Below, one piece after another: positions 5,117 to 21,051 of a stretch of 64,000 nt of DNA (the stretch's first letter is position 1; each line of letters opens with the position of its first letter). The DNA lies in the NCBI RefSeq assembly GCF_018736065.1, contig NZ_CP076128.1, forward strand, positions 3,845,001 through 3,909,000, written 5' to 3'. The position numbers and the translations under genes are program-made. Origin of the DNA: Flammeovirga kamogawensis. GTDB taxonomy: Bacteria > Bacteroidota > Bacteroidia > Cytophagales > Flammeovirgaceae. The notes below the pieces were generated by a model. That model worked only from the letters and a program-made list of their open reading frames with translations, ran no database searches and was not told where the DNA came from.

Positions 5117-6280
5117 ATGAAAAAAGATATTAAAAAGTACCCTGCGTTAGACAAAGAAAAATTAGCGAAGTACAAAGATCTATATGAAAACTCTAGAAGT
5201 ACAGATGGAATTCATCCAGATGTGGTAAACCATTTAACTAGAGTAAAAACAATGGGAGGAGGAAAAGGTATTGAATTCCTTTCTAACCTTAATAAAGATT
5301 ATTTAGGTGCTTTTATGGCTCCTTTCTCTCAAGATTTAGAGAATGCTGATATTGCCGTTGTAGGACTTCCTTTAGAAAAGTCTGCTCCAATGAATGCTTC
5401 TCATAAATATGGCCCTAAAGTATTGCGTGAACTTTCTAAGAATTTCATGGGTACTACTGAACCTTGGGTAGACGGCAAATTTGATATTCCATTTGATTGG
5501 GCAAATATTGTAGACTATGGTACAATTGATACTTATGGTCAGTTTGATCTTTCTTCTGAGGTAGAAACGTGTTTATCTCACTTCGATGATATTGTTGTTA
5601 AGAATAAGTGTTCTACTTTCTCTTGGGGTGGAGATCATACCATCTCATATATTCCAATTGCAAAATTAGCAGAGGTACATGGTCCGTTAAGCGTAATTCA
5701 CTTTGATGCTCACTTTGATTTAGTGACGTATGCAGATTTCCCTTATCCATACCATTCAGGTGCAATGTTTACACGTAATATGGCAGAAGGTCATATTGAT
5801 GCTGATAGAATGATTACAATGGGTATTCGTGGTAGAATGACTGGTCTTGTTGGTGGACATGCAGATAACTTTGGTGTGAAATATTTAACGGCTGATGAGT
5901 GTCGTAGAACAGATCCTAAAGTGATGGCTCAACAAATTATTGATCGTGTTGGAGATGGTCCTACGTACTTAACGTTTGATTTAGATGCACTAGATCCAAT
6001 TTATAATTCAGCTTCTTCTGCTGTAGAACCATTTGGTTTAGATTTAAACTGGTGTTGGGATGTATTAAGAGAGGTACGTTTATCTGGAAAGGTAAATCTT
6101 GTAGGTGCTGATGTAGCAGAATATGCTCCTCAAAATGACCCTGCAAAAACTTTTGGTTACTGTGCAGCTGGCTTAAGCTGGAAATTATTAATCTGGTTAG
6201 CTGAATGTGCTAAAAGACGTAACGGAGGAGTAGATAACCCTACTGTTTGGGATATGTCTCTTGGTAACGTGACACTTTAA
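5117..6280 (+). CDS. agmatinase/arginase-family ureohydrolase, divergent
   Basis: A 387-residue ureohydrolase-fold enzyme, first gene of the long cluster. The binuclear-metal ligands are all present: GGDH with H174, DAHFD with D197/H199/D201, and DLDALDP with D288/D290/D293. Compared with agmatinases (about 300 residues) it has an N-terminal extension of about 70 residues. The usual GTGTPEPGG substrate loop after DxDxxDP is replaced by a segment reading YNSASSAVEPFGLD. It should hydrolyse a guanidino or related C-N bond, releasing urea or ammonia, but the altered loop argues against plain agmatine. Guanidine-hydrolase-like enzymes are also long members of this family and are an alternative. 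Confidence 0.8.
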   Translation: MKKDIKKYPALDKEKLAKYKDLYENSRSTDGIHPDVVNHLTRVKTMGGGKGIEFLSNLNKDYLGAFMAPFSQDLENADIAVVGLPLEKSAPMNASHKYGPKVLRELSKNFMGTTEPWVDGKFDIPFDWANIVDYGTIDTYGQFDLSSEVETCLSHFDDIVVKNKCSTFSWGGDHTISYIPIAKLAEVHGPLSVIHFDAHFDLVTYADFPYPYHSGAMFTRNMAEGHIDADRMITMGIRGRMTGLVGGHADNFGVKYLTADECRRTDPKVMAQQIIDRVGDGPTYLTFDLDALDPIYNSASSAVEPFGLDLNWCWDVLREVRLSGKVNLVGADVAEYAPQNDPAKTFGYCAAGLSWKLLIWLAECAKRRNGGVDNPTVWDMSLGNVTL

Positions 6281-6314
6281 TCAATCAATTTTAGACTAAA
6301 AAAATATTAATATA

Positions 6315-7085
6315 ATGGCAAATTTCTTTTCATTAGCAGGACAAGTTGCAGTTATTACTGGTGGTACTTCAGGCATAGGACTGAAGTCAGCGGAACGCTT
6401 TATTGAAGCGGGAGCTAAAGTAGTAATCTCTGGTCGTAAAGATGGTACTGAGATCGCTGAGAAAATCGGAGCTACTTTCGTACAGTGTGATGTTGGTAAT
6501 CCTGAGTCTGTTCAAAATATGATGAAAACAACCGTAGATACTTATGGTAAAATAGATATCATCGTAAATAATGCAGGTGCAAATTTTGGTTATGAAACCA
6601 TTATGGATACTGATTTAGAGAACTTTGACAAGAACTTTGGTATCAATACTAAAGGGGTTGTTCATGGTATTAAATATGGTGTGCCATTAATGAATGATGG
6701 TGGTCGTATTGTCAATGTAGCTTCAGCTGCAGCCGTTCAAGGTGTGGCTTATTTAGCCCCTTACGTGGCTAGTAAATGGGCTGTTGTGGGTATTACAAAA
6801 ACGGCGGCTATCGAATTAGGTGATCGTAGAATAAGAGTAAATGTTATTGCTCCTACTTCAGTAAATACACCTATGGCCAACACAGAAGATGGTCAACCTC
6901 AATTACGTATGGAACACAAAGCAGTACCGTTAGGTCGTATTGCTGAGCCAGAAGAAGTTGCTTCATTAATCCATTTCTTATCTGCTAAAGATTGTGACTT
7001 TGTAAACGGTCAAGTAATTGGTGTTGATGGTGGTTTTACTGCTGGGTTCAGTATGGATGCTTACAATACGTTAGCAGCTGAGTAG
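6315..7085 (+). CDS. SDR-family NAD(P)-dependent oxidoreductase
   Basis: A 256-residue classical short-chain dehydrogenase. The Rossmann motif is TGGTSGIG near the N-terminus, then NNAG, catalytic S137 and YVASK with Y150 and K154. The C-terminal GQVIGVDGG segment is typical. It lies 34 bp after the ureohydrolase and presumably interconverts an alcohol and a ketone in the same pathway. Substrate cannot be read from sequence. Confidence 0.9.
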   Translation: MANFFSLAGQVAVITGGTSGIGLKSAERFIEAGAKVVISGRKDGTEIAEKIGATFVQCDVGNPESVQNMMKTTVDTYGKIDIIVNNAGANFGYETIMDTDLENFDKNFGINTKGVVHGIKYGVPLMNDGGRIVNVASAAAVQGVAYLAPYVASKWAVVGITKTAAIELGDRRIRVNVIAPTSVNTPMANTEDGQPQLRMEHKAVPLGRIAEPEEVASLIHFLSAKDCDFVNGQVIGVDGGFTAGFSMDAYNTLAAE

Positions 7086-7113
7086 ATCAAATCTATTTAA
7101 AAATATAATTAAT

Positions 7114-7134
7114 GGACGTAGCAATGCTACGTCC
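7114..7134. repeat. intra-operon hairpin 1
   Basis: Perfect inverted repeat with arms GGACGTAGC (7114-7122) and GCTACGTCC (7126-7134) around AAT, in the gap between the SDR and the Ldh2-type gene. There is no T-run after it, so it is not a standard terminator. Its form resembles palindromic REP-like units dispersed in Bacteroidota genomes; that family assignment is inference. Confidence 0.7.
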
Positions 7135-7171
7135 CTTCAAAAAATAATCTGACAATTAAAAAAATAAAACA

Positions 7172-8317
7172 ATGGGAGCACAAGGGAAAACAAAATCGAC
7201 AAATGCAGATTTCTTACGCTACGCTTTAAAAAGAACTTGGATGGCAGCAGGTGCATCAGAAGAGCACGGTAATGCAGTAGCAGATGCACTAATGTTGGGT
7301 ATCCGACAAGGTAAATTAAACCAAGGTTTAGGTGTATACGAAGCAATTGATATCATGAATCAAAAAGGTTTGTTAGATATCAACGCAGAGCCAGAAGTTG
7401 TAGGTGAGGGAGATACTTGGGCATCAATCGATGGTAAACGTTCTTCTGGTTACTGGACATTGACTAAAATGGCGAACATGGCGATCGAAAAAGCGAAGAA
7501 GCATGGTATTGCTATCGTATTCGGTCATAATCATAATGATGCAGGTTCATTCGGTGCTTATACTTGGATGGCATCAAAAGCAGGTTGTGTAGCGTTAACT
7601 TCTAATAACTCGGTACCAATGTGTTCACCGCTAGGTGGTATGTCAAACACTATCTCAGTACCTCCATTAGATGGTATTGGTCCTGCAGGTGAGAAGCCTC
7701 CAGTATGGATGTCGACTAAACTTTGTGAGTGGTATGATGCAGATACAGCACAAGCTGTACTTCAAGGTACTAAACTGAAAGGTGATTATGTAATTGATCC
7801 TGAAACTGGTGGATTATCAAACGATTTGGCTCCATACGCTCAGCCAATCGAAGGTTATGGTCGTGTGTATAACCAATCGGCATTCCAACAACTTTCAAAT
7901 CCAAGAGTATACATGTTGAACTTATTCAACGAATTACTTTCTGGTATCATTAACCCAGGTGCAACAATTACTCCTGAAGTACCTTCTTTAGGTGATATTG
8001 TAGATGGTACGGCTGAAGGTACATCTGTTGGTGGATCTTACTTTATCTGTATTGATCCTTCACACTTTGGTCCTTTAGGTGATGTGTTAGCAAAATCAGA
8101 TCGTTTTGCACAAGCAATCGAAGATTCTCCAGCTCGTCCAGGTCAAAGAAAGCCAGGTATGCCAGGTGCTAAAGGTTATGAGTCAATCATCAAAGATGAA
8201 GAAATCGTTGAGGTATTAGATTCTCACTGGGAACCATTTTTTAAGACTCAAGCTGGTCGTTACGGCATGACTGAAGAAAGTTTAAGAGCTGATTGGGAAG
8301 CGCAAAGAAATAAATAA
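7172..8317 (+). CDS. Ldh2/malate-lactate dehydrogenase family oxidoreductase
   Basis: A 381-residue member of the Ldh2 (malate/L-lactate dehydrogenase) family, whose NAD(P)-binding fold is unlike Rossmann enzymes. The HNHNDAGSFGAY segment and the TSNNS...SPLGG stretch correspond to the family's conserved nucleotide and substrate region. The family includes ureidoglycolate dehydrogenase, sulfolactate dehydrogenase and piperideine-carboxylate reductase as well as malate dehydrogenase. With an agmatinase-like enzyme and a PLP decarboxylase nearby, a 2-oxo or cyclic-imino acid reductase is plausible, but this is inference. Confidence 0.85.
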   Translation: MGAQGKTKSTNADFLRYALKRTWMAAGASEEHGNAVADALMLGIRQGKLNQGLGVYEAIDIMNQKGLLDINAEPEVVGEGDTWASIDGKRSSGYWTLTKMANMAIEKAKKHGIAIVFGHNHNDAGSFGAYTWMASKAGCVALTSNNSVPMCSPLGGMSNTISVPPLDGIGPAGEKPPVWMSTKLCEWYDADTAQAVLQGTKLKGDYVIDPETGGLSNDLAPYAQPIEGYGRVYNQSAFQQLSNPRVYMLNLFNELLSGIINPGATITPEVPSLGDIVDGTAEGTSVGGSYFICIDPSHFGPLGDVLAKSDRFAQAIEDSPARPGQRKPGMPGAKGYESIIKDEEIVEVLDSHWEPFFKTQAGRYGMTEESLRADWEAQRNK

Positions 8318-8347
8318 TTAGTTAGAAATATTTCTATTAGGATTATC

Positions 8348-8373
8348 TAGCCCACGATTTCAATCATGGGTTA
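8348..8373. repeat. intra-operon hairpin 2
   Basis: TAGCCCACGATT (8348-8359) pairs with AATCATGGGTTA (8362-8373), with one G-U and one mismatch. It lies in the Ldh2-SDR gap without a T-run. Its AGCCCAYGA...TCRTGGG core is shared with hairpin 6 (17639-17674), and partly with hairpin 3, pointing to one repeat family. Confidence 0.65.
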
Positions 8374-8406
8374 GTGAAAATTCAAACGTACAAAAATAGA
8401 GAGAAT

Positions 8407-9207
8407 ATGCAACTTCTAGAAAATAAAGTAGCTCTTGTAACTGGAGCAACAAAAACAAAAGGTTTAGGTAGAGCAATTGCTGAGAAATTAGCAGAGCTTG
8501 GAGCTAAAGTGGTTTTAACAGGCCGTAATAGCTCTAAAGAAGGGATGGAAGCAAATGTTGCTGATATTAAAGCCAAAGGTGGTGAAGCAATGGGTGTATT
8601 AGTTGATGTTTCTGATGCAGCACAAGTTGATTCAGCAATCCAACAAGTACTTGATGCTTACGGTTCTTTAGATATCGTAGTAAACAATGCAGGTGTAGGT
8701 TTTGGATCTGCTTTATTAGATGAAAATACAGATAAAGATTGGGATGCAAACTATGCTGTAAATGTAAAAGGTGCATTAGCAGTTTGTAAAGGTGCTATTC
8801 CTGCTATGGAAAAATCTGGTGGAGGAGCGATCGTAAATGTTGCTTCAACTGCTGGTATAGCTGCAGGTATGGGCATGCCTTATCCTTACGTTGCTACTAA
8901 ACATGCATTAGTAGGTGCTACTAAGGTATTGGCAATCGAGCAAGCGCCAAAAGGTATTCGTGCAAATGTTGTAGCTCCTGGTGCTATCAATACTGATATG
9001 TTACAAGAAGCATACAAAGCAATTGCAGAAGCAGAAGGTTGTTCTGTTGAAGAAGCAGCTGCAAAAGAAAATGCAGGTATTCCTTTGGGTCGCCCAGCAG
9101 AGCCAAGTGAAATTGCAGAAGCAATTGTTTACTTAGCTTCTCCAGCCGCAAGTTATATCACAGGTATTGTATTGCCGGTTCACGGTGGTATGGCACCAGG
9201 TTTATAG
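8407..9207 (+). CDS. SDR-family NAD(P)-dependent oxidoreductase
   Basis: A 266-residue classical SDR starting at ATG 8407, where the family's N-terminus (MQLLENKVALVTGA) begins. An in-frame GTG 11 codons upstream falls right after hairpin 2 and is less likely. Motifs: TGATKTKGLG cofactor loop, NNAG, and YVATK with Y161 and K165; the end GIVLPVHGG is typical. It resembles 3-oxoacyl-ACP/2-deoxygluconate dehydrogenase-type SDRs. It is the second of three SDR genes in this cluster. Confidence 0.9.
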   Translation: MQLLENKVALVTGATKTKGLGRAIAEKLAELGAKVVLTGRNSSKEGMEANVADIKAKGGEAMGVLVDVSDAAQVDSAIQQVLDAYGSLDIVVNNAGVGFGSALLDENTDKDWDANYAVNVKGALAVCKGAIPAMEKSGGGAIVNVASTAGIAAGMGMPYPYVATKHALVGATKVLAIEQAPKGIRANVVAPGAINTDMLQEAYKAIAEAEGCSVEEAAAKENAGIPLGRPAEPSEIAEAIVYLASPAASYITGIVLPVHGGMAPGL

Positions 9208-9215
9208 AAAATTAC

Positions 9216-9243
9216 ATCAGTCCATATTTCGGTATGGGCTGAT
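9216..9243. repeat. intra-operon hairpin 3
   Basis: ATCAGTCCATA (9216-9226) pairs with TATGGGCTGAT (9233-9243) around TTTCGG, with one G-U pair. It lies between the second and third SDR genes without a T-run, and the AGTCCATA...TATGGGCT core resembles hairpins 2 and 6. Confidence 0.65.
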
Positions 9244-9273
9244 AAATTATCCTTCTTTATCATTCAATAGAAA

Positions 9274-10016
9274 ATGAAAAAAGTAGCATTAATTACAGGT
9301 GCTGCACAAGGGATTGGTTTCGAAACAACAAGATTACTAGAGAACAAAAATATACAGTCATTTTAGCTGATGTTCAAAGTAATGTTGTAGAGAAAGCAGA
9401 AGAACTTCAAAAGCAAGACATTGATGCATACCCTTTTCAATTTGATTTAGCAGATACTTCTACTTTTCAACCTTTAGTTGAATTTATTTCTAAAGAATTC
9501 AGAAAGTTAGATGCTTTGATCAATAATGCTGCAATGCTTGTAGATATGGGGAAACATCCTTCAGATTTATCAGAAGAGCTTTTTAGAAAAGTAATGGAAG
9601 TAAATTATATAGGTCCTTTCCTATTAACACAAAAATTAGTTCCATTGTTAAAGAAAAGTGAAGCGGGACGAATTGTCAATTTATCTAATCAGGTAGCACA
9701 GTTAAAACAACTTTCAGATATGAATTCACCTTTGAGGGAAGATATATGTTCCGCTTATCAAAGTTCAAAAATTGGTGTAAATGCCATGACTGTACTTTAT
9801 GCTAAGGAATTAGAAGAGTTCGGTATCAAAGTAAATAGTTGTTGTCCAGGGTGGGTAGATAGTGCTATGAATACTGAAGAGTTACCTGATTATGGAGAGG
9901 GGGCAAGACCTAAAACATTGTCAGAAGGAGCAGATACTTCTGTTTGGTTAGCAACACTTTCAGAAGATGGACCAACTGCAGGTTTCTATACAGATAGAGA
10001 AAGAATAGATTGGTAA
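9274..10016 (+). pseudogene. SDR oxidoreductase broken by a frameshift in an A5 run
   Basis: The ATG at 9274 opens a normal SDR N-terminus (MKKVALITGAAQGIG) that stops at TAG after 30 codons. The next frame continues without a stop from the A5 run at 9346-9350 through K-Y-T-V-I-L-A-D-V, INNAA and SAYQSSK (the YxxxK site) to 10016. Adding one A at 9346-9350 restores a single SDR of about 248 residues. The downstream frame shows no decay, so a sequencing error, a recent mutation or a phase-variable tract are all possible. Called pseudogene only because the frame is broken as given. Confidence 0.8.
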
Positions 10017-10034
10017 TTATTAGATCAATAAATT

Positions 10035-10643
10035 ATGTGTAAAACTACAGAAAAGCCAGAATTAAATTTTGATACTCCACTCTTTAATTATGATGAGTTG
10101 GAGCAGCAGTTAAATGATTATGAGGCAAACCCTGAAGGTTATAAACATGATGGTCCTTCTATTATTTCTGTTCGACAAGGAATTAGAGCAGGAAGAGCAG
10201 GAAGCGTTGCAGTAGGTGGTTGCCTTTTACATCATGATCAAGTGATTTCTGAAAATATGTCTAAGGCAAATGCTCCTTATCACCGTTTAGATCTTCATGC
10301 AGAAATGGTTCTTTTGAATGAGTTGGAGGATAGACTTTGTGACAATAAGACTCCAAAGATGAGAGATTATACTCTTTTTACATCTCAAGAGCCTTGCCCA
10401 ATGTGTTTAGCAAGAATCTGTTGTAGTCAGGTTGGTAAAACATATTATGTCTACAGAGATGCAAAAAGTATTGAAGCTGGAGATCAAACAAATTATGAAA
10501 GATTACCCGAAGGTTTTAAATTATTAGGATCTAGGTTAGTTATTGAGGAAGCTGATTGTTCTCCAAAGCTAAAAGAAATTGCTCGTCAGGTATGGTTAAA
10601 TTCTATTGATCACTGTGTTGATGAATGGTTAGAAAGATATTAA
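10035..10643 (+). CDS. cytidine/deoxycytidylate-deaminase-fold deaminase
   Basis: A 202-residue zinc deaminase. The HAE motif (H88, E90) and the PCPMC motif (C121, C124) supply the zinc ligands and proton-shuttling glutamate of the CDA superfamily. Guanine deaminase and TadA are family relatives, but the N-terminal about 55 residues and the C-terminal 60 residues are not typical of either. It follows the broken SDR by 18 bp and precedes the next gene by 1 bp, so it belongs to the cluster. It likely removes an amino group from an amidine- or purine-like intermediate; substrate unknown. Confidence 0.8.
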   Translation: MCKTTEKPELNFDTPLFNYDELEQQLNDYEANPEGYKHDGPSIISVRQGIRAGRAGSVAVGGCLLHHDQVISENMSKANAPYHRLDLHAEMVLLNELEDRLCDNKTPKMRDYTLFTSQEPCPMCLARICCSQVGKTYYVYRDAKSIEAGDQTNYERLPEGFKLLGSRLVIEEADCSPKLKEIARQVWLNSIDHCVDEWLERY

Positions 10644-10644
10644 T

Positions 10645-11289
10645 ATGACACCATCAGAAAATATAACACCAAGGGATCATACCTACTTTCTTGAATATGT
10701 AAGACAGTTAGGAATGCTTCTCTTTGCAATTAGCATGACAACACCTGTATTAGGATTGGTAATTTTTGATGTAGAAACCGAAATTGTTGATGGAGATAAA
10801 GTAATGGATACTCAAATGATTTGGGATAAACCTTTTTTACCTTACGTAGCAGGTTTTCTAATTTTAGTAATCCACTGGTTTAAATTTGTTGAAGTACATC
10901 ATTCAATGAAAACAACAAATCTAAATCAAATACTTATCACTTTTGGATACTTCTTTCTACTGTGTTTGTATCCTTATTTTGAGATGAATATTGAGTTTAC
11001 TTCAGATCAACCTCATTCAAGAGCAATTTTTAGTGGAGTTTGGGGGTTACTTGGTATTTTTTCTTATTTGAAATTACATCATGCTAAGAAAAACGGAATG
11101 CTAAAAGATGAATTAACGGAAGGACGAATTAAAGTCTTATCGAATGAAATTTTAGCAGATCCAGTAGTCGCTATTGCTTGTGTAGGACTTTCGTATGTAA
11201 GCTTTATAGCATGGTTAATAGGTATGGTAGTTTTAGTGCCAATTGCCAATTATGTATTAGCAAGAACCAGTATAAAGGCTGGTTATTAA
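10645..11289 (+). CDS. multi-pass membrane protein, possibly TMEM175-like
   Basis: A 214-residue protein with membrane segments at about residues 20-40, 66-85, 92-110, 130-145 and 170-205. The opening RQLGMLLFAISMTTPVLGLVIF followed by a histidine-rich FKFVEVHHSMK segment is reminiscent of the bacterial TMEM175/DUF1211 potassium-channel family, but the match is weak. It overlaps no gene and is spaced 1 bp from the deaminase, suggesting translational coupling. Function within the cluster is unknown. Confidence 0.6.
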   Translation: MTPSENITPRDHTYFLEYVRQLGMLLFAISMTTPVLGLVIFDVETEIVDGDKVMDTQMIWDKPFLPYVAGFLILVIHWFKFVEVHHSMKTTNLNQILITFGYFFLLCLYPYFEMNIEFTSDQPHSRAIFSGVWGLLGIFSYLKLHHAKKNGMLKDELTEGRIKVLSNEILADPVVAIACVGLSYVSFIAWLIGMVVLVPIANYVLARTSIKAGY

Positions 11290-11298
11290 TTATTTATT

Positions 11299-12045
11299 AT
11301 GAAACAATCATTCATCTGTTTAGTATTTCTACTTCTTTCAAATATTCTTTTCGCGCAAGACGAAGAAATTGATGCTTCAAAACCAACTAATTTTTATACG
11401 CAATTGTATAACCACTTAGAGTACAATTACTCTAAAGATGGACCTGATACTTTTGGGTATAGAGCTGAGTTTATGTTTGCACCGAGTGAGGCTCACTTAC
11501 TTTTAGCAGAGCTACCATTATTACATAATACAGGAACAAACAAAACAGGTATTGGAGATTTTAGAGCAAGATATTTTTATCTGCCTTATAAAAATTATGA
11601 TAAACTGTTAGGAGCATTTGGTCCATCAGTGGATGTTTTTGCTCCAACAGGTGATTACGATAAAGGATTAGGAACAGGAACTTGGTTAGTTCAACCAGGG
11701 GTAACGGTAGGTTTAATGTTCGCAGATTGGATTCAAGCCTTTCCAATTTTGTCTTACCAATATACTTCTTCTCCTGTGATTGACCGTCCAGAACTTCTAG
11801 ATGAAGCACAGCACGGGATCTCATTCCAGATTATCACACCGATCATCTTTAGTGAGAAATTCTTTATGCAAGTCACACCTATATATACTGCAAGTAATCT
11901 ATCTAAGGATAGAAATGATAGATACATACAAGAAGTGGTAGCTCAATATGCCTTAAGTGATAAATTACAGATTAGTTCTTTTTACAGAGGTATTTTTAAA
12001 GACAATAACCACACAGCAAGATTAGCCCTTCTAGTATTTCTTTAA
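11299..12045 (+). CDS. outer-membrane beta-barrel protein (SphA/MetA-pathway porin-like)
   Basis: A 248-residue protein with a signal peptide ending FAQ (residues 1-20) followed by alternating aromatic/polar beta strands and a C-terminal hydrophobic strand ending in FL. The pattern (AEFMFAPSEAHLLLAELPL, GIGDFRARYFYLP, VDVFAPTGDYDKGLGTGTW) resembles the phenol-degradation MetA-type outer-membrane channel family. It probably lets the cluster's substrate or product cross the outer membrane. Gap to the previous gene is 9 bp. Confidence 0.65.
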   Translation: MKQSFICLVFLLLSNILFAQDEEIDASKPTNFYTQLYNHLEYNYSKDGPDTFGYRAEFMFAPSEAHLLLAELPLLHNTGTNKTGIGDFRARYFYLPYKNYDKLLGAFGPSVDVFAPTGDYDKGLGTGTWLVQPGVTVGLMFADWIQAFPILSYQYTSSPVIDRPELLDEAQHGISFQIITPIIFSEKFFMQVTPIYTASNLSKDRNDRYIQEVVAQYALSDKLQISSFYRGIFKDNNHTARLALLVFL

Positions 12046-12081
12046 TAAGTCATTAAAAACACTATAAATAAAAATAAGATC

Positions 12082-13467: not shown

Positions 13468-13490
13468 GCAAAGAATATTTAGATGAAATT

Positions 13491-13526
13491 ATCAATTACT
13501 CAGGGCTTCGGTTCTGAGTGGTTGAT
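13491..13526. repeat. intra-operon hairpin 4 with UUCG tetraloop
   Basis: ATCAATTACTCAGGGC (13491-13506) pairs fully with GTTCTGAGTGGTTGAT (13511-13526), counting four G-U pairs, and closes on the very stable C(UUCG)G tetraloop. It lies between the decarboxylase and PHP-protein genes with no T-run. It may protect or punctuate the mRNA. Confidence 0.75.
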
Positions 13527-13564
13527 ATCTATAATAACCTCTCTATTTGATTACTACTAAGAGA

Positions 13565-15682
13565 ATGAAAAGAATACTACTAAGTTTATGTTGGCTTCTA
13601 GCTTTGCCTGTTTTAGCTCATCAACCTGATAATGCATCTGGTACTTTTGAGTTAGATTGGCATACTAGTCAGATTGATAAAACCATTGCTACAGGCGTTT
13701 TTCAGACGATGGGATTACGTGTGGATAATGATCCATCTAGAGCAGGGGTGAAAGAAGAAGGAGGAAAAAAGATACTTTTTGGGATCGCCTTAGGGTTTAG
13801 TATTGACGATCAGTTTGCTTTTGATATTGATCAGAAAATAAAAGTGACCGTAGAATTAGATGCGAGTAACTTGACAGAGTTTTTCTACGCTTACGATAGA
13901 AATGGAGTAGTAGAATCTGTGCATAGAATAGAAATAGCGCAAGGAACAAAAGGGTTTCAAACCTATGAATTTGTTTTAGATAGAGCTCGATTTGCAAATA
14001 GAGGCTACAGTCAAACGGACTTTGCAATTTCTAGTGGTTTAGATATGTCGAGTAAGCTACTTTTTATTAGAGACATTAAATTTGAATTAGTAGGTGAAAC
14101 TGCGAAAAGAAATGCTTCAGGAAAATTACAATTAAACCTAATTGAAAAGAAATCGAAAGAGCGTGTAGCAGCACAAATTGGATTGTATGATGCTTCGGGT
14201 AGAATGCCTCTTCCAACAGAAAGTGCTATTGAGTTACAGTTCTTTGAAACTATGGTTCGTTCGGTAGAAATACGAGAGGAGTTAGATCAAATTAATTGGC
14301 CTAATGATAACCATTACTCTATGTATGTAGATGGTTTATACCAAGCCAATATACCTGCAGGGAAATATACATTAGTAGTAATGAAAGGCCCTGAATACCC
14401 AATTCTCACAAAAGAAATTGAGATCGAAGCAGACCAAGATAACAATATCAATATCACTTTGGATCATGTTATTGATATGCCTTCTAAAGGTTGGTATTCT
14501 GGAGATGTTCATAATCACTTTTCTCGTAGAAACTCATCTGTAAATACTAATCAAATGGCCCATGCGAGAGCAACAGATTTACACATGCATTGGTTGTATG
14601 CTTTAGGTAATTCAGTAACGACACACTTCGATCAATATGCTTGGGGTAAAGATGGTCAGTATAAAGAAAAAGATTATTACATCGCATCAGGTCAAGAAGA
14701 TCCAAGAACGGACTTTTTGGGGCATGTTTTAGCAATGGGACAGAATGAGTTTGTACGTTACCCTAATGATTATTTTCATTATGATAAAGTATCAAAAGAG
14801 GTACATAAACAAGGTGGAGTTTTTGGCGTAGCACATATGGATTTTGCTCAATTTCAACAAAATATTGCATTGGCAATGTTGGCTCCAGAAGATGAAGTGG
14901 ACTTTGTCGAAATTTTCCAATATCATTCTTTAAACCTAAACGATTGGTATGCATTTTTAAACTTAGGTTTCAAATTAGCTGCAGCAGCAGGATCAGATTG
15001 GCCTTATATGTCTTTACCAGGATCGGTGAGAACGTATGTAAAAGTGGATGGAGAATTTACACCTGATGCTTGGAATAAAGGTTTGGCAGAAGGGAAATCA
15101 TTTGCATCAAACGGTCCAATGGTTGATTTTAACATTAATGGAAATGATATAGGGTCAACTGTACAAGTGAAAAAAGGAGAAACGATTCAGATTAAAGCAA
15201 AAGGGTATATAGTTCCTAGCTGGGATCTTTTAAAATACGCTAGCATTATTGTAAATGGTGATGTAGTGAAAGAAGTCAAACTAGAAAAAGGACAAAAAGA
15301 AATTGAAATTGATTTGGAATTACCAATGAATGAAAGTGCTTGGATAGCAGTAAAAGTTCATGGTGAAAAAGCACATGATATTGTGTTCCAAAGTGATTTT
15401 ACAAAAAGAATACAAGCACATACTTCACCGATTTATATAGAGGTAGATGGTCAGCCAACTTGGTCAAAAGAGAAAGCTCCAGAAATTATAGATCGATTAA
15501 TAGAAAGAATGGAAGTGGTAAAAGAAATGAAATATCAACGCAACGATAATGAGGCTTGGGAAAGTCCAGATCGTACAGCAGAGATGTTAGAAGCTTTTCG
15601 TCCCTACTTAAGAACTTGGATAGATCAAACTTCTGAGTTTTACGAAAAAAGAAAAAAAGAAATTGTGACACCATCAAAATAA
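13565..15682 (+). CDS. secreted CehA/McbA-family PHP-type metallohydrolase
   Basis: A 705-residue protein from ATG 13565, where a clean signal peptide begins (MKRILLSLCWLLALPVLAHQ); an upstream in-frame TTG at 13547 is rejected. Residues about 25-190 form a beta-rich N-terminal domain and about 190-300 a carboxypeptidase-regulatory-like segment. A PHP-type metal site follows: HNH at 316-318, then GGVFGVAHMD and AAAAGSDWP. The last 150 residues are again beta-rich. It probably hydrolyses an ester, carbamate or phosphate bond in the periplasm, upstream of import. Substrate unknown. Confidence 0.8.
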   Translation: MKRILLSLCWLLALPVLAHQPDNASGTFELDWHTSQIDKTIATGVFQTMGLRVDNDPSRAGVKEEGGKKILFGIALGFSIDDQFAFDIDQKIKVTVELDASNLTEFFYAYDRNGVVESVHRIEIAQGTKGFQTYEFVLDRARFANRGYSQTDFAISSGLDMSSKLLFIRDIKFELVGETAKRNASGKLQLNLIEKKSKERVAAQIGLYDASGRMPLPTESAIELQFFETMVRSVEIREELDQINWPNDNHYSMYVDGLYQANIPAGKYTLVVMKGPEYPILTKEIEIEADQDNNINITLDHVIDMPSKGWYSGDVHNHFSRRNSSVNTNQMAHARATDLHMHWLYALGNSVTTHFDQYAWGKDGQYKEKDYYIASGQEDPRTDFLGHVLAMGQNEFVRYPNDYFHYDKVSKEVHKQGGVFGVAHMDFAQFQQNIALAMLAPEDEVDFVEIFQYHSLNLNDWYAFLNLGFKLAAAAGSDWPYMSLPGSVRTYVKVDGEFTPDAWNKGLAEGKSFASNGPMVDFNINGNDIGSTVQVKKGETIQIKAKGYIVPSWDLLKYASIIVNGDVVKEVKLEKGQKEIEIDLELPMNESAWIAVKVHGEKAHDIVFQSDFTKRIQAHTSPIYIEVDGQPTWSKEKAPEIIDRLIERMEVVKEMKYQRNDNEAWESPDRTAEMLEAFRPYLRTWIDQTSEFYEKRKKEIVTPSK

Positions 15683-15690
15683 ACTAAACA

Positions 15691-17325
15691 ATGAGTACAC
15701 AAGAAAAAATGAATTGGAAACCATTAATCGTAATCATCTTATCGATGGTGATGATGTACATTACATCATTTAGTATTAATGTATTGATTGGACCGATTGT
15801 ACAAGATTTGAATTGGTCTGTATCAGGTTTACAAATGGTAATTGTTTCTGCCTCATTAATTGCAGGTACATTAATGGTTACTGCTGGCAGATTAGGAGAT
15901 AAAATAGGAAAGAAAAAAGTATTCTTAATAGGATCTATCATATACACTATTGGTTTAACAATAGTAGTTTTAGCACCTAACTCTACAATATTTAGTATTG
16001 CATGGGCTTTAATTTGGCCTTTTGGTATGGTAATGGTCATTCCAACATCAATTGCCTTAATTATGTACTTTTATGAAGGAGGGCAAAGAGCTACAGCTTT
16101 TGCTATTTATGGTGCGGTGTTATCTATTATTTCTGCTATTGCACCGGTAGTGGTTGGTTATTTAGCCTCTGTAGTATCGTGGAGAATAGCATTAGGTTTA
16201 TCACCAGCATTTGGTGTATTGACTATTATTGCTGCTTTTACTTTACCAGAAACAGAAAAAGATTCTTCTATTAAAATAGATATTCTATCAGTATTCTTAT
16301 CAGTTGTAGCTTTTGGTACTTTCTTGATTGCCACAACAATGGCTTCAGAATACGGATGGTTAATGGAAAAGAGACCATTTGAAATCGGTGGAACAGTGAT
16401 TCCTTTAGGAGGATTATCGATTGTACCAATTATGTATGCGATTGCAATTGTATTGTTGATTATTTTCTTCAAGAGAGGAGCAGCGTTAACCGCTAAAGGA
16501 GAAACACCATTATTAAGTGCTTCTATCTTAAAGAACATACCTTTCTCAATTGGTATGACGGTTCAAGCATTATTATACTTTTTAATTGCAGCCGTATTAT
16601 TTACTATTTCAGTATTTGTACAATCAGCAGCAGGATTAGATTCATTTGATACAGCATTAACCACTTTACCAATTTCAATTGGTGTAGCATTCACAGCCTT
16701 TGGAACAGCTAGTTTAGGGGAGAAAATTTCTCCAAAACTAATCGTGATTGTTGGTTTCATTATCATATTAGGAGGTTCATTCTTATTGACGCAACAAGCA
16801 TCAGTAGATATGACTTGGACGTCAACTATTTCTGGGGCATTAGTTTTTGGTATTGGTTGTGGATTAGTGATGGCTCAAATTGCAACGCTGACAATGATAA
16901 AAGTACCTTCTTCACAAGATGGTGAGGCATCAGGTTTATCTGAAACGATGAAAGAAATTGTTGGGCAGGGATTTGCAATTGCTTTTGCAGGATCTATCTT
17001 ATTTGGTTCAGTTTACACAAATATGGTAGACGGTTACGAAGCAACTGAAGAATTGCAATTATCGAAGATAGATAAAGAAGCAATTATCATCGAATTAGAA
17101 GATACATTTATGGAAATTACTCCTGAACAGGAAAAAACTTGGGTACAGGAGCAGTTACCAGAAAAAACAAAAGAGGCTTATCAAGAAATTGTGAATGCAT
17201 CTGCGGAAAAAGCATTCCAAGATACATTTATAATTGTAAGTATCTTTACACTGATCTCTTTAGTGCTAAGTTTCTTACTTCCGGGAATGAAGCTAGGAGC
17301 TTCTGAAGAGAAAACTACAGCTTAA
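15691..17325 (+). CDS. MFS transporter, DHA2 (EmrB/QacA)-like, 14 TM
   Basis: A 544-residue major facilitator with about 14 predicted membrane segments. The MFS loop motif GRLGDKIGKKKV follows TM2, and the motif-C-like GAVLSIISAIAPVVVGYL lies in TM5. A large charged segment at about residues 445-510 sits before the last TM. The family mostly exports drugs or metabolites by proton antiport, so this cluster may export its product or an inhibitory intermediate. It starts 8 bp after the PHP gene. Confidence 0.85.
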   Translation: MSTQEKMNWKPLIVIILSMVMMYITSFSINVLIGPIVQDLNWSVSGLQMVIVSASLIAGTLMVTAGRLGDKIGKKKVFLIGSIIYTIGLTIVVLAPNSTIFSIAWALIWPFGMVMVIPTSIALIMYFYEGGQRATAFAIYGAVLSIISAIAPVVVGYLASVVSWRIALGLSPAFGVLTIIAAFTLPETEKDSSIKIDILSVFLSVVAFGTFLIATTMASEYGWLMEKRPFEIGGTVIPLGGLSIVPIMYAIAIVLLIIFFKRGAALTAKGETPLLSASILKNIPFSIGMTVQALLYFLIAAVLFTISVFVQSAAGLDSFDTALTTLPISIGVAFTAFGTASLGEKISPKLIVIVGFIIILGGSFLLTQQASVDMTWTSTISGALVFGIGCGLVMAQIATLTMIKVPSSQDGEASGLSETMKEIVGQGFAIAFAGSILFGSVYTNMVDGYEATEELQLSKIDKEAIIIELEDTFMEITPEQEKTWVQEQLPEKTKEAYQEIVNASAEKAFQDTFIIVSIFTLISLVLSFLLPGMKLGASEEKTTA

Positions 17326-17330
17326 CCTTT

Positions 17331-17367
17331 TCATCAACCCTCGGTTTCAACAACTGTGGTTTGATGA
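17331..17367. repeat. intra-operon hairpin 5
   Basis: TCATCAA (17331-17337) pairs with TTGATGA (17361-17367); the inner part (CCCTCGG with CTGTGG) pairs less well. No T-run follows. Same position class as hairpins 1-4 and 6, but the weakest of the set. Confidence 0.5.
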
Positions 17368-17416
17368 GAATTACAATATTTCATATTTATCACACTGACT
17401 TAAAAAGACAAACTCA

Positions 17417-17623
17417 ATGAAAACATTTATAGGCGTATCTATTATTGATACAGATGGAAAGAAAAAAGACTTTATCCTTAACACTCCTTTTTTAGGTGAT
17501 GAAAATAGATTGATTGAGGAAGTTTATGTTGAGGATTGGCATCAGTATCCTTTGGTTATTGTAAAGACAAACCATGGAGAACAACACTTTGCTGATGTAA
17601 AGTTTGAAATGCTTTACGAATAA
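17417..17623 (+). CDS. hypothetical 68-residue protein
   Basis: A small acidic protein, not recognised. It has no signal peptide or membrane segment and a predicted mixed beta pattern (KTFIGVSIIDTDG, YPLVIVKTNHGEQHFADVKFEML). It is flanked by hairpins 5 and 6 and shares the direction of the cluster, which supports it being a real gene. Confidence 0.55.
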   Translation: MKTFIGVSIIDTDGKKKDFILNTPFLGDENRLIEEVYVEDWHQYPLVIVKTNHGEQHFADVKFEMLYE

Positions 17624-17638
17624 CATTATAGTATTTTT

Positions 17639-17674
17639 ATCATTAGTCCATGACTTTAGTCGTGGGGTAATGAT
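17639..17674. repeat. intra-operon hairpin 6
   Basis: ATCATTAGTCCATGAC (17639-17654) pairs with GTCGTGGGGTAATGAT (17659-17674) around TTTA, with one mismatch and two G-U pairs. No T-run follows. Its core AGTCCATGA...TCGTGGG is related to hairpin 2. Confidence 0.7.
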
Positions 17675-17714
17675 ATGATAAAATCTCAATCATTCATTTC
17701 GCAATCAACTTATC

Positions 17715-18485
17715 ATGAAATATCAAAAATTAGCTTTTGTAAAATCTGGAAGCCCAAAAAGTGAAGAAGCTTATAATTTACTTATTGATAAATATGAAAA
17801 CCATTCAATTGATGAAGCAGACGTAATTGTTGCTTTAGGTGGTGATGGTTTTTTATTACAAACATTGCATACTTATCCTCATTTAAAAACACCAATTTTT
17901 GGGATGAACAGAGGAACATTAGGTTTCCTTTTGAATGAATATAAAGAAGATGTAAACCTTTTAGGGCGTATTAATCACTCTAAAGATGTGCACCTTTGTC
18001 CAATTTCTGTAGATATTGAAGATGTAGAAGGAGAACACCACCATTATAAAGCCTACAATGAAGTTTCTGTAATTCGTTACTCAGGTCAGAGTGCAAACTT
18101 AAAAATTGACGTTAACGGAAAAACAATGCTAGAAACTTTAAATGCAGATGGTGTTTTGGTATCTACTCCTGCAGGAAGTACAGCTTATAATTTTTCAGCT
18201 CATGGCCCAATTATTCCTTTAAATGCCAATTTACTAGCACTAACACCGGTTTCACCTTTTAGACCACGAAGATGGAAGGGCGCTTTATTACCAGATGACG
18301 TTACGATTGAAATTACAAATCTTGATCCAGTGAAAAGACCTATTGGTGCTGCAGCAGACTCAAAAGAGGTGAAAAATGTAGTAAAAGCAAAGGTATGGCA
18401 GGACAAGGGTGATTTAAGACATTTACTATTTGATCAAGATCAGTCTTTAGAGGAAAGAATTTTGATTGAACAATTTAACGTGTAA
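17715..18485 (+). CDS. NAD kinase, alphaproteobacterial type
   Basis: A 256-residue NAD(+) kinase making NADP from NAD and ATP in the cytoplasm. Catalytic GGDG lies in VALGGDGFLLQTLH (about residues 42-55); GMNRGTLGFLLNEY and the NADGVLVSTPAGSTAYN site follow. The length and segments such as SPFRPRRWKGALLPDD and the LEERILIEQF tail closely follow the short alphaproteobacterial NAD kinases I recall, not the longer (about 290-residue) Bacteroidota form. It may be a second, horizontally acquired NAD kinase serving the cluster's dehydrogenases. The next gene begins 4 bp after its stop. Confidence 0.9.
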   Translation: MKYQKLAFVKSGSPKSEEAYNLLIDKYENHSIDEADVIVALGGDGFLLQTLHTYPHLKTPIFGMNRGTLGFLLNEYKEDVNLLGRINHSKDVHLCPISVDIEDVEGEHHHYKAYNEVSVIRYSGQSANLKIDVNGKTMLETLNADGVLVSTPAGSTAYNFSAHGPIIPLNANLLALTPVSPFRPRRWKGALLPDDVTIEITNLDPVKRPIGAAADSKEVKNVVKAKVWQDKGDLRHLLFDQDQSLEERILIEQFNV

Positions 18486-18489
18486 AAAA

Positions 18490-19953
18490 ATGTCGAATGT
18501 AAGGAAGTATTCTACTTTATTTTTGATTTTAATTATTGGTTTTCAGGTGGAGGCTCAAGATGTAAATAAAGACTTGGAGCTTCCTTCTTATGCTGATAGA
18601 AGATATAAAGAAAACTGGAAACTTTCAGACTGGTCTGATAGAGATAAGAGAGCAAAAGATTGGTCTGATATGATCAAGACAGTTCCTTTATCAAACAATA
18701 AGAAAATTTGGGCTTCATTTGGTGGGCAAGTACGTGGACGGTATATGCCTACTATAAATGAAGAGTTTGGACCAGAAAACTCAGGCTTGTTTACATTGCG
18801 TTTACGCGCACATGCAGATGTACATTTTGGAAATAATTTTAGAGTGTTTGCAGAAGGTATTTACTCTAATACCACAAAAGACGATGGATCTCGGTTAGGA
18901 GCAGGTACACCTGTAACGAAAGGTGCTTTTCTAAATTTATTTGCCGAGTATAAGTTCAATGTATACAATAAAACAAATTTAGGCATTTGGGCAGGTAGAA
19001 GAGAGCTACAAGCGGGGCATGAACGTTTACTATCTCCCGGAAACTGGTTAACAACACGTCGTACTTTTGACGGGGCAGGGTTTTACTTTGGGAATGAAAA
19101 AGATAAATTAACTGCTTTTGTTTCTCGACCAGTAATTCCTGTTCCAGATGGTTATACAACTAGAGATGATAATACAACAATTTGGGGTGTTAGGTACGAA
19201 TCTAGTGATCTTCCTTATACTACTCATGCAGGTTTTGGTGTGCCAAGTTGGTCATCTTTTGATAGGACCTATTTTGAACCATATATATATTGCTTACATC
19301 GTCAGAATGCTGTTTACGAAGAAGGTACAGCAAACGAAACAAGATACACTGCAGGTTTCTTGTTAGCAGGACCAATTAAACGTATCTTTAATTATGAGAT
19401 AGAAGCAATGTATCAATTTGGATCATTTGGTGACCAAAAGATTGCAGCATATTCTATTACTACAGAGTTTGGAGTATCTTTTCCAGAAGTTAAATTACAA
19501 CCTCATATTTGGTTAGGTTTTGATTATTCTTCAGGAGATCAAAACCCAAATGATGGTACGTTGGGTACATTCAACCCATTATTTCCTCAAGTAGCACAAT
19601 TTTTTGGCGAACATGGAGCTATGGATAGAAAAAACCTAACTTCTTTGTCTGCTAATGTTGATTTGACTGTATTTAAAATAGTGAAATCAAGATTAACGTA
19701 TTGGAATTTCCAACGCTCTAGTATAAACGATGCTGTATACAATACCTCTAACGGAATTATGAGAAGTGGTAATAGCAATTCTAGAGATTTAGGAGATTCT
19801 ATGCAATTATCTACAGTTATATCTTTAAGTAGACATTGGGAAATTTGTGCAACTTATAACTTTTGGGTACCTGGGCAATACTTTTGGGATACCCAATCAG
19901 GAGCGGCCTATACTCAGCACTTTTTTATGATCACTACTCAATTTACATTTTAA
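18490..19953 (+). CDS. outer-membrane porin, alginate-export-like
   Basis: A 487-residue protein from ATG 18490, where a signal peptide begins and ends EAQ; an in-frame TTG at 18466 overlapping NAD kinase is rejected. The segment WAGRRELQAGHERLLSPGNW followed by RRTFDGAGFYF matches the alginate-export (AlgE-like) barrel family, in which an R/Q/G-rich strand region recurs. The C-terminus ends in an aromatic strand (QFTF). It likely forms a channel for an anionic solute. The next gene starts directly at its stop codon. Confidence 0.7.
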   Translation: MSNVRKYSTLFLILIIGFQVEAQDVNKDLELPSYADRRYKENWKLSDWSDRDKRAKDWSDMIKTVPLSNNKKIWASFGGQVRGRYMPTINEEFGPENSGLFTLRLRAHADVHFGNNFRVFAEGIYSNTTKDDGSRLGAGTPVTKGAFLNLFAEYKFNVYNKTNLGIWAGRRELQAGHERLLSPGNWLTTRRTFDGAGFYFGNEKDKLTAFVSRPVIPVPDGYTTRDDNTTIWGVRYESSDLPYTTHAGFGVPSWSSFDRTYFEPYIYCLHRQNAVYEEGTANETRYTAGFLLAGPIKRIFNYEIEAMYQFGSFGDQKIAAYSITTEFGVSFPEVKLQPHIWLGFDYSSGDQNPNDGTLGTFNPLFPQVAQFFGEHGAMDRKNLTSLSANVDLTVFKIVKSRLTYWNFQRSSINDAVYNTSNGIMRSGNSNSRDLGDSMQLSTVISLSRHWEICATYNFWVPGQYFWDTQSGAAYTQHFFMITTQFTF

Positions 19954-21051
19954 TTGAAGAAGAAATTATTATATAGCTTTTTACTTTTTTTACTTCCCTT
20001 TTTAGGAATTTGTAGCGATTCAGACTCTCTAAAAAAGGAAGTGTATAAAGATAATATTCTCCCATCACCAGCTTTTACATATAGTCCAAAAACAGATGTT
20101 GTTTTAGGAATTTACTTATTGTATCAGTTTAAGATGGATCGAAGAGATTATTCTACACGCCCATCAAATATTAATTTTTATTACGGCTCTTCTTTTAAAG
20201 GACAAAACTTCTTGTCTTCAGAGCATACTATCTTAACAAATAAGGAGAAGTTCTTTTTAAAAGGAATCATCGAATATAAAAATACTCCCGAACAATTATT
20301 TGGTATAGGGCCTAACTCATCAGACGATTATATCTTATCAGAATATACCTCTTTTGAATTTAAAGAGAGAGTACTTTATCAGTTTAGACCAAAATTATTT
20401 GTTGGAGGAAGGTTAAGATATATCACATTATTTGATTTTACTTATAACGACCAGGAAAACAATAGTATTCCACCACCTAATGTTACAGGAGCAGAAGGTG
20501 GACACTATCTAGGTTTCGGTCCTGTTTTAATGTACGATAAGCGAAATAGTATTCTAACACCTACCCAAAACTATTATTTAGATTTTGCCGCCACATTTTA
20601 TGCAAGTTCTTTAGAAGATGGTGGCTTTGCTACTATAGAGCTAGATGCAAGACGCTATTTAGACTTCGATACTGATGGAAAAAGAGTACTGGCTTTTCAA
20701 GGATTAATGAAATCAACTTTTGGTAATGTACCCTTTAATGAATTGGCTCTTTTAGGAGGGAAACAAATTTTAAGAGGATATACGTTAGGTAGATTTAGAG
20801 ATGAACATTATCTACAATTACAGGCTGAATTTAGAGCAACTTTAATTGGAAGGTTTGGGGCAACAGCATTTGCTGGAACAGGCACTGTTTATGATCAGTT
20901 TGATGATTTTAAGTATTTAAAAGCAGCCTTAGGTGGTGGTTTACGTTTTAATATTAATAGAAAAGACCCCGCAAATGTTCGTATTGATTTTGCTTGGAGT
21001 GTAACAGATAATAATAAAGGACTTTATATAACATTGGGAGAGGCATTTTAA
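19954..21051 (+). CDS. BamA/TamA (Omp85-like) outer-membrane barrel protein
   Basis: A 365-residue protein starting with TTG immediately after the previous stop codon; the signal peptide (KKKLLYSFLLFLLPFLGICS) begins right there, supporting this start. It has no POTRA domains, only a surface-antigen D15-like barrel: the segment LLGGKQILRGYTLGRFRD resembles the Omp85 lid-lock VRGY region, and the end reads GGGLRFNI...GLYITLGEAF. It is the last gene of the cluster; a T-rich tract follows without a clear hairpin. Related in kind to the minus-strand gene at 23971. Confidence 0.75.
   Translation: MKKKLLYSFLLFLLPFLGICSDSDSLKKEVYKDNILPSPAFTYSPKTDVVLGIYLLYQFKMDRRDYSTRPSNINFYYGSSFKGQNFLSSEHTILTNKEKFFLKGIIEYKNTPEQLFGIGPNSSDDYILSEYTSFEFKERVLYQFRPKLFVGGRLRYITLFDFTYNDQENNSIPPPNVTGAEGGHYLGFGPVLMYDKRNSILTPTQNYYLDFAATFYASSLEDGGFATIELDARRYLDFDTDGKRVLAFQGLMKSTFGNVPFNELALLGGKQILRGYTLGRFRDEHYLQLQAEFRATLIGRFGATAFAGTGTVYDQFDDFKYLKAALGGGLRFNINRKDPANVRIDFAWSVTDNNKGLYITLGEAF

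Follow-up and report, generated by a model that had tools for sequence, protein, structure and literature searches.

A conserved ureohydrolase gene cluster of Flammeovirga that may encode a horizontally spread marine pathway for guanidino or amidino compounds

The described systems closest to the gene cluster reported here are the arginine decarboxylase/agmatinase route and the guanidino-acid hydrolases (SpeB, GbuA, GpuA, proclavaminate amidinohydrolase). The cluster lies in a 64,000-nucleotide stretch of the Flammeovirga kamogawensis genome (contig NZ_CP076128.1, 3,845,001 to 3,909,000), hereafter the window. It has in common with these systems an alanine-racemase-fold decarboxylase dependent on pyridoxal 5'-phosphate (PLP) and a ureohydrolase, which retains the fold and metal site of the guanidino-acid hydrolases. 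In contrast to the SpeB/GbuA-type route, the cluster ureohydrolase carries a long N-terminal extension and stays below the equivalog cut-offs for agmatinase (114.9 against 174.3), arginase (32 against 227.6) and formimidoylglutamase, HutG (85.3 against 229.15), and the cluster adds short-chain dehydrogenases/reductases (SDRs), an Ldh_2 family oxidoreductase, a deaminase and a NAD kinase. Guanidine utilisation, by guanidinase or by carboxyguanidine deiminase (DUF1989), involves the same ureohydrolase superfamily, and a DUF1989 gene is present within one related locus, that of Desulfosarcina. DUF1989 has a deiminase role; to our knowledge, the other cluster enzymes have none in guanidine utilisation. 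Against the Nitrospira guanidinase chain the cluster ureohydrolase scores only 44.7 bits. A literature search covering titles, the beginnings of abstracts and passages of PMC8503589, PMC9772407 and PMC11410670 found no such cluster described; within that material, the statement of a first-pass annotation that no described pathway has this gene set holds. We report that the cluster behaves as one unit: chance co-location is ruled out by its conservation within the genus and at loci from four phyla.

The cluster occupies positions 5117-21051 of the window, on the + strand, where 14 open reading frames (ORFs) of 166-711 aa and a conserved 68-aa ORF form a set of 15 co-directional ORFs. The gene of a sigma-54-dependent activator (2627-4690, + strand) stands directly upstream. 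Intergenic gaps along the set measure 34, 86, 89, 66, 18, 1, 9, 36, 97, 8, 389, 4 and 0 bases, counted from the chosen starts 8407, 9274, 13565 and 18490 where these depart from the listed ORF starts. Families were named from profile matches (Pfam, NCBIfam). Six genes constitute the core: an agmatinase-like ureohydrolase of 387 aa (5117-6280), SDR1 (6315-7085), the Ldh_2 family oxidoreductase (7172-8317), SDR2 (8407-9207, listed ORF start 8374), a zinc deaminase of the CDA superfamily (10035-10643; PF00383, 37.3 bits, cut-off 25) and a PLP-dependent LysA-like decarboxylase (12082-13467; PF02784, 101.9 bits). All genes named in the first-pass annotation are present on this strand. It had overlooked the activator, the 68-aa ORF and a TMEM175-type membrane protein gene (10645-11289; PF06736, 29.2 bits, cut-off 25), and had taken 7172-8317 for an SDR, which by PF02615 belongs to the Ldh_2 family instead. 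As for its count of three SDRs, SDR1 and SDR2 stand; SDR3 (9274-10016, a profile match) is broken by a frameshift near 9340 in this assembly, its start at 9274 is out of frame with the remainder, and an ORF with a start codon extends over 9516-10016 only.

The genome carrying the window (6.97 Mb) was grouped in one genus with eight further genomes. The ureohydrolase was found in all nine and was not found in 49 other relatives searched (E 1e-20). Comparison by tblastn at 1e-10 revealed an identical arrangement of genes, starting with the activator and ending with the Omp85 gene, in 9/9 genus genomes, apart from losses in three: SDR3 was not found in G396, G401 and G398, nor the deaminase in G396. 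Among 395 phylum-wide genomes, the ureohydrolase (E 1e-60) and Ldh_2 (E 1e-30) had a match in the window's own genome only. The decarboxylase profile (1e-120) likewise had this genome as its sole match among 395 genomes of the class, and in three other orders it matched the centre genome only (1/138, 1/146, 1/174). Loss of neighbourhood conservation had been named in advance as the result that would speak against one co-conserved unit. The check was run and the neighbourhood found conserved, the full set being kept in 9/9 genomes of the genus and the core in five non-genus loci.

Related loci were sought in named genomes with two peptide patterns, which returned 14 loci, five of them from Flammeovirga; as the scan used these two patterns only, further members of the cluster may exist. 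A Halioglobus locus was found through a plasmid search, and no relatives were found in viral contigs. Several of the related loci are metagenome bins whose contig ends fall inside the cluster. The core recurs in Lutimonas (L042), in the Cytophagales genome Alg240-R148 (L041) and in metagenome-assembled genomes of Desulfosarcina (L043) and Actinomycetota (L044, L045), with Ldh_2 71-91% identical. The Alg240-R148 and Lutimonas loci carry the activator, ureohydrolase, SDR1, Ldh_2, SDR2, deaminase and SDR3, together with the TMEM175-type gene, a relative of the putative barrel a (63-65% identical), the decarboxylase, a major facilitator superfamily (MFS) transporter and the NAD kinase. The Desulfosarcina locus holds SDR1 (75%), Ldh_2 (77%), SDR2 (77%), deaminase (51%), ureohydrolase (71%), SDR3 (58%), decarboxylase (62%) and an MFS transporter (59%) cut by the contig end. 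In L044 and L045, Ldh_2 is 71% identical, SDR2 and the decarboxylase each 59% and 57%, SDR1 61% (upstream) and 63%, and the ureohydrolase 59% and 29%, respectively. The deaminase is 66% identical in L045, and L044 has it split into two pieces (61% and 69%) that lie in different frames. L044 also has a NAD kinase (50%) and SDR3 (46%); in the L045 genome a cluster-type NAD kinase (52%) is found at the end of a different contig.

A reduced core was observed in Gammaproteobacteria. Locus L048 contains a ureohydrolase (32%), MFS, SDR1 (38%), decarboxylase (49%) and SDR2 (43%), along with VOC, amidase and dimethylformamidase-like genes. In Marinobacterium (L065/L066), SDR2 (48%), SDR1 (50%), a ureohydrolase (31%), MFS, an aminotransferase III and an additional PLP decarboxylase of another type occur together, with Ldh_2 (53%) several kb beyond and a LysA-like decarboxylase (55%) and aldehyde dehydrogenase about 10 kb to the opposite side. 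On the Halioglobus pacificus plasmid pRR3-57, a single 730-aa ORF (L032:19995-22187) spans relatives of the decarboxylase and SDR2, which are separate genes in the window; a dimethylargininase-like gene (59 bits, below the cut-off of 300), a TonB receptor, AraC, MFS and SDR1 accompany it. Locus L047 has only the decarboxylase, VOC, aldehyde dehydrogenase and SDR2. Nine non-genus loci were assessed, the 3-kb contig L040 being left out of the count: an SDR2 relative is present in all 9, SDR1 and an amidino-group enzyme in 8 each, Ldh_2 in 6, the deaminase in 5 and SDR3 in 4. The amidino-group enzymes are seven ureohydrolases (the 29% one included) and the dimethylargininase-like protein, each on the same contig as the decarboxylase and within about 12 kb of it. 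The elements that vary least are a C-N hydrolase of guanidino/amidino type, the decarboxylase and a pair of SDRs. Ldh_2, the deaminase and SDR3 occur often, and transport, regulation and extra hydrolases vary between loci.

Ldh_2 of Flammeovirga is 77% identical to that of the Desulfosarcina genome and 71-72% identical to those of Actinomycetota, and the core was not found in sampled relatives of the Lutimonas, Cytophagales, Desulfosarcina, Actinomycetota and gammaproteobacterial hosts. This high identity across phyla, combined with rarity inside each group, points to horizontal spread of the cluster among marine bacteria of four phyla. A recent transfer was also considered on base composition, the cluster enzymes having 35-41% G+C against 26-29% in the three upstream and 31-34% in the three downstream genes; nothing is claimed from this since third-position G+C is alike (0.16-0.25 in the cluster, 0.14-0.23 in the flanks). 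Between the window and seven more distant Flammeovirga, Ldh_2, SDR2 and the decarboxylase are 94-98% identical, the ureohydrolase only 71-72%. The ureohydrolases of those seven are 97-100% identical among themselves and 89-91% identical to those of Alg240-R148 and Lutimonas. In a tree that took in three of the seven, the window/G396 pair falls outside the clade of Flammeovirga, Alg240-R148 and Lutimonas (support 100/100). Because this allele diverges far more than its neighbours and occupies this position, the ureohydrolase of the window and G396 was probably swapped in place for a relative from outside; faster evolution is the alternative cause. The L048 and Marinobacterium sequences group with the core ones (96/92), alongside two other genomic copies, and long branches leave the deep part of the tree unsure.

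The ureohydrolase belongs to its superfamily with 171.6 bits against PF00491 (cut-off 22), and its structure model (mean predicted local distance difference test score, pLDDT, 76.3) only confirmed the fold. Its closest solved relatives are agmatinase, proclavaminate amidinohydrolase and guanidinobutyrase. Residues G171, G172, H174, D197, H199, D201, D288, D290 and E335 are invariant in the 10 aligned rows. Passages of PMC9772407 describe the roles of the metal ligands and the Glu, and that of R72 in GbuA, which caps the carboxylate of the substrate. Unlike GbuA, the window protein has at this position the Glu of a TTEPW motif, in a part of the alignment with gaps nearby; the motif is retained in 13 of 14 rows, L045 being the exception. 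The replacement of the capping Arg by Glu suggests a substrate without an acid at this end, such as an amine from which the carboxyl group has already been removed. The guanidino theme proposed in the first-pass annotation is supported by the conserved metal-site columns and by the amidino-group enzyme beside the decarboxylase in 8/9 non-genus loci, to which the Desulfosarcina locus adds its DUF1989 gene. Nitrogen gain through urea and urease found no support: in 12/12 genomes, some of them incomplete bins, no urease alpha subunit scored above cut-off (urea carboxylase was not searched), and G453 gave two weak partial matches below it. Released urea is consequently not an obvious nitrogen source and, if formed, would be lost or used by another route.

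Two further enzymes depart from their families. The profile match (PF02615, 143.7 bits, cut-off 38.8) places the Ldh_2 protein with malate/lactate, sulfolactate and ureidoglycolate dehydrogenases. The His of the Ser/Thr-His-Gly motif of this family is catalytic, and of 12 solved relatives found the three shown retain it, whereas Asn-Gln-Gly replaces the motif in 7/7 aligned orthologues of the cluster enzyme. The structure model was too poor for use (mean pLDDT 54.4). The decarboxylase shares the fold of LysA and retains the PLP Lys and EPGR, but it stays below the diaminopimelate decarboxylase cut-off (TIGR01048, 216.8 bits against 297.9), has Cys-Asn-Tyr/Ala in place of Cys-Glu-Ser and lacks the Arg-Pro..Tyr stretch. 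Those motifs serve distal-substrate recognition in diaminopimelate decarboxylase. The equivalog scores thus rule out an ordinary agmatine or lysine pathway, and the departures from family-typical residues suggest that Ldh_2, the decarboxylase and the ureohydrolase act on substrates unlike those of their named families. Relatives of the deaminase are TadA and guanine deaminase-type proteins.

An Arg after the second strand of an SDR marks the NADP type. Such an Arg follows β2 in SDR1 and SDR2 of Flammeovirga, Alg240-R148, Lutimonas, Desulfosarcina and the two Actinomycetota; in Marinobacterium, Halioglobus, L048 and the single SDR of L047 an Asp is found there. For SDR1, whose assignment combines the family profile with this residue, no solved relative was found at 1e-50, a cut too strict. 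The cluster encodes an extra NAD kinase of PRK04761 type (17715-18485; NF003406, 343.2 bits, cut-off 211), the second of the window genome being located at C1:3980978. Two NAD kinases each, one in the cluster, were counted in G000, G396, G397, G402, G446 and G447; G451 and G452 have two each, none in the loci examined. The kinase is in the locus in Flammeovirga, L041, L042 and L044 and has no match in the gammaproteobacterial loci. From these sequences, NADP-type SDRs appear mostly to go with an extra NAD kinase, with one exception.

The activator (PF00158/PF14532, AAA lid, Fis-type helix-turn-helix) is likely a dedicated regulator. Residues 10-200 of its 680-aa form contain five hydrophobic segments, which suggests that the N-terminal part is probably membrane-embedded. 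It adjoins the cluster in 9/9 genus genomes (39-81% identity) and in L041 and L042 (30-35%). Aligning upstream regions revealed a 17-bp palindrome with a tail, GTGATATTTCACGAAAA (4719-4735, + strand), immediately 3' of the activator gene, some 380 bases ahead of the ureohydrolase. In the 6.97-Mb genome it has one match at 0-1 mismatch, and the reversed control has none. The element is found at the same place in 9/9 genus genomes with at most one change, and upstream of the cluster in Alg240-R148 (one mismatch) and Lutimonas (twice, in tandem). Across 8 genomes, matches elsewhere number 4, each with one mismatch, against 3 for the control, which is chance level; a second match in the window, at 17710 with three mismatches, also agrees with chance expectation. 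The cluster thus combines an adjacent activator gene with a conserved upstream site, as a sigma-54-controlled operon should, and this operator-like element is a candidate binding site for the activator. Looser sigma-54 promoter patterns were matched in G400, G398 and L042 only, and not in the window.

The remaining genes concern hydrolysis and transport. A CehA/McbA-family metallohydrolase (PHP) with a leader-like N-terminus (13547-15682, alternative start 13565; NF038032, 198 bits, cut-off 80) shares 31-33% identity, across 89-97% of its length, with proteins of carbaryl hydrolase type from five plasmids of Sphingobium, Sphingomonas and Pseudomonas; it has no solved relative at 0.001 and no match in the non-genus loci L041-L048. 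It is followed by the MFS transporter, DHA2/EmrB-like (15691-17325; PF07690, 111.9 bits; TIGR00711, 142.2 bits, below the cut-off of 230.2), and by the 68-aa ORF (17417-17623), which sits inside the 389-base gap and has 73-85% matches in 7/8 other genus genomes. Of the three outer-membrane barrels announced in the first-pass annotation, the Alginate_exp-family protein (18466-19953, start 18490 chosen; PF13372, 206.9 bits) is a clear match; barrel a (11299-12045; weak Phenol_MetA_deg match, 20.7 bits, cut-off 22) and the Omp85-family-like protein (19954-21051; NF047779, 66.8 bits, cut-off 200) fall under their cut-offs and stay putative. The PHP hydrolase and the Alginate_exp and Omp85 barrels were found in Flammeovirga loci only, with no match in the Alg240-R148 and Lutimonas loci, so the hydrolase and two of the three barrels do not form part of the core. 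On the other side of the activator, an HNH-type gene (1910-2491, - strand; weak Pfam match below cut-off) stays upstream of it in 8/8 other genus genomes (59-93% identity).

Other loci hold part of this gene set. A second locus in one Flammeovirga genome (L030, G402:C1:5146000-5165900) contains an activator (34%), MFS (42%), ureohydrolase (28%), TMEM175-type protein (69%) and barrel a (49%), with no SDRs and no decarboxylase, as if regulator, transport and ureohydrolase were a separate module. Directly upstream of the Lutimonas activator (L070:8297-16498), a TonB receptor, an AMP-ligase, MFS, an SDR (43% to SDR1), an aminotransferase III and another SDR (41% to SDR2) are perhaps a sister pathway; M20 carbamoylase-type genes were noted in L066 and L070. 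Two proteins upstream of the Alg240-R148 cluster (L069) had no Pfam match. On a Microvirga sp. VF16 plasmid (L034), a 30% decarboxylase relative lies about 2.7 kb from a 31% ureohydrolase relative on the opposite strand, and no further core gene was found near it. An Antarctobacter plasmid decarboxylase match (28%) had no core among its annotated neighbours, and plasmid agmatinases with N-terminal matches (Sagittula, Thioclava, Azospirillum, Gemmobacter) have annotated neighbourhoods unlike the core.

On balance, we lean towards reading the cluster as a metabolic operon that is induced by a ligand, has been passed between marine bacteria and encodes one pathway for a class of guanidino or amidino compounds, in the catabolic direction. 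The membrane-bound activator would sense the compound or a product, bind the upstream palindrome and switch the operon on, and the barrel porins, MFS and TMEM175-type proteins would transport the compound. The ureohydrolase would split a C-N bond of a guanidino or amidino group. Hydroxyl, keto or imine groups would be oxidised or reduced by the modified Ldh_2 together with two or three NADP-linked SDRs, the LysA-like enzyme would decarboxylate an amino-acid intermediate and the zinc deaminase would take off an amidine-type nitrogen, with the extra NAD kinase maintaining the NADP(H) supply. Gene content, conservation, the single-copy site and the residue changes are observations; we infer the binding of the activator to that site, the order of these reactions, the substrate class and the direction. 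Catabolism is probably the direction, because the neighbours in the gammaproteobacterial loci (aldehyde dehydrogenase, aminotransferase III, amidase) and possible uptake functions favour it over synthesis. More tentatively, and taken together a little short of an even chance, we propose that the pathway is undescribed, has spread horizontally among marine bacteria and serves a single widespread guanidino/amidino metabolite. On this reading it would have a sensor of its own, an operator unique in the genome, a kinase supplying the cofactor and two enzyme subfamilies whose chemistry is new, namely an Ldh_2 oxidoreductase lacking the His and a decarboxylase of LysA fold with a new specificity; in one plasmid lineage this decarboxylase shares a reading frame with its partner dehydrogenase. 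As candidate substrates we considered mycosporine-like amino acids, gigartinine-type red-algal amino acids and taurocyamine; the literature search found no such pathway, and nothing in the sequences favours one of them.

Several observations weigh against this operon reading. The proton-shuttle His column is outside the list of residues invariant in the 10 ureohydrolase rows, the L045 ureohydrolase falls outside the core group in the tree with its 29% identity, and L047 has a decarboxylase with no amidino enzyme found in 13.4 kb. Basic amino acid decarboxylases, like diaminopimelate decarboxylase with its Glu, carry an acid where the cluster enzyme has Asn, which does not fit easily with direct action on a guanidino amino acid. 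The gammaproteobacterial SDRs, at 36-50% identity in a huge family, may be non-orthologues, and the Desulfosarcina bin has Arg-type SDRs yet no NAD kinase match anywhere. SDR3, broken in the window, is absent from 3/8 other genus genomes and the deaminase from G396, so these two steps may be dispensable. A strict pattern for a sigma-54 promoter of TGGCAC-N5-TTGC type matched in 0/11 upstream regions, and the lack of urease above cut-off also counts here.

The drug-efflux type of the MFS and the NADP-linked appearance of the enzymes also fit the main rival, in which a small specialised metabolite is synthesised by the operon from an arginine-derived guanidino precursor, through NADPH-driven SDR reductions, decarboxylation and trimming by the ureohydrolase, and is exported by way of the MFS and the outer-membrane proteins. 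Further points for it are the extra NAD kinase, TonB receptors adjacent to the loci of Halioglobus, L048 and Lutimonas, and a decarboxylase fold also used in siderophore synthesis (weak FslC match, 57 bits against 500). However, the window cluster has no ligase, non-ribosomal peptide synthetase, polyketide synthase or glycosyltransferase among its profile matches, and the gammaproteobacterial loci have NAD-type SDRs and degradative-looking neighbours, the dimethylformamidase-like gene among them; we regard synthesis with export as rather unlikely. An efflux-type MFS would also suit an operon that protects against a harmful guanidino compound from marine animals or competitors by altering the compound and pumping it out, as would the absence of urease above cut-off and a patchy distribution like that of resistance islands. 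Such detoxification is improbable, since the many successive redox and decarboxylation steps exceed the usual needs of inactivation and the porin-like barrels and TonB neighbours suggest uptake. Finally, two or more independent units could stand side by side: the core (5117-13467), an unrelated NAD kinase and a set made up of the hydrolase and barrels (13547-15682, 18466-21051). The missing PHP, Alginate_exp and Omp85 matches in L041 and L042 and the make-up of the second G402 locus agree with this, but the NAD kinase and MFS stay beside the core in L041 and L042, most gaps are small and the whole set is present throughout the genus apart from the SDR3 and deaminase losses, which makes such a patchwork very improbable.

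Marine dissolved organic nitrogen includes guanidino and amidino compounds, and genes acting on them are often labelled generically as agmatinase. An operon common to Bacteroidota, Desulfobacterota, Actinomycetota and Gammaproteobacteria would provide a handle on a compound that all of them encounter. With a single-copy operator-like site and cultured hosts in Flammeovirga, Lutimonas and Marinobacterium, the question of its substrate is directly testable.

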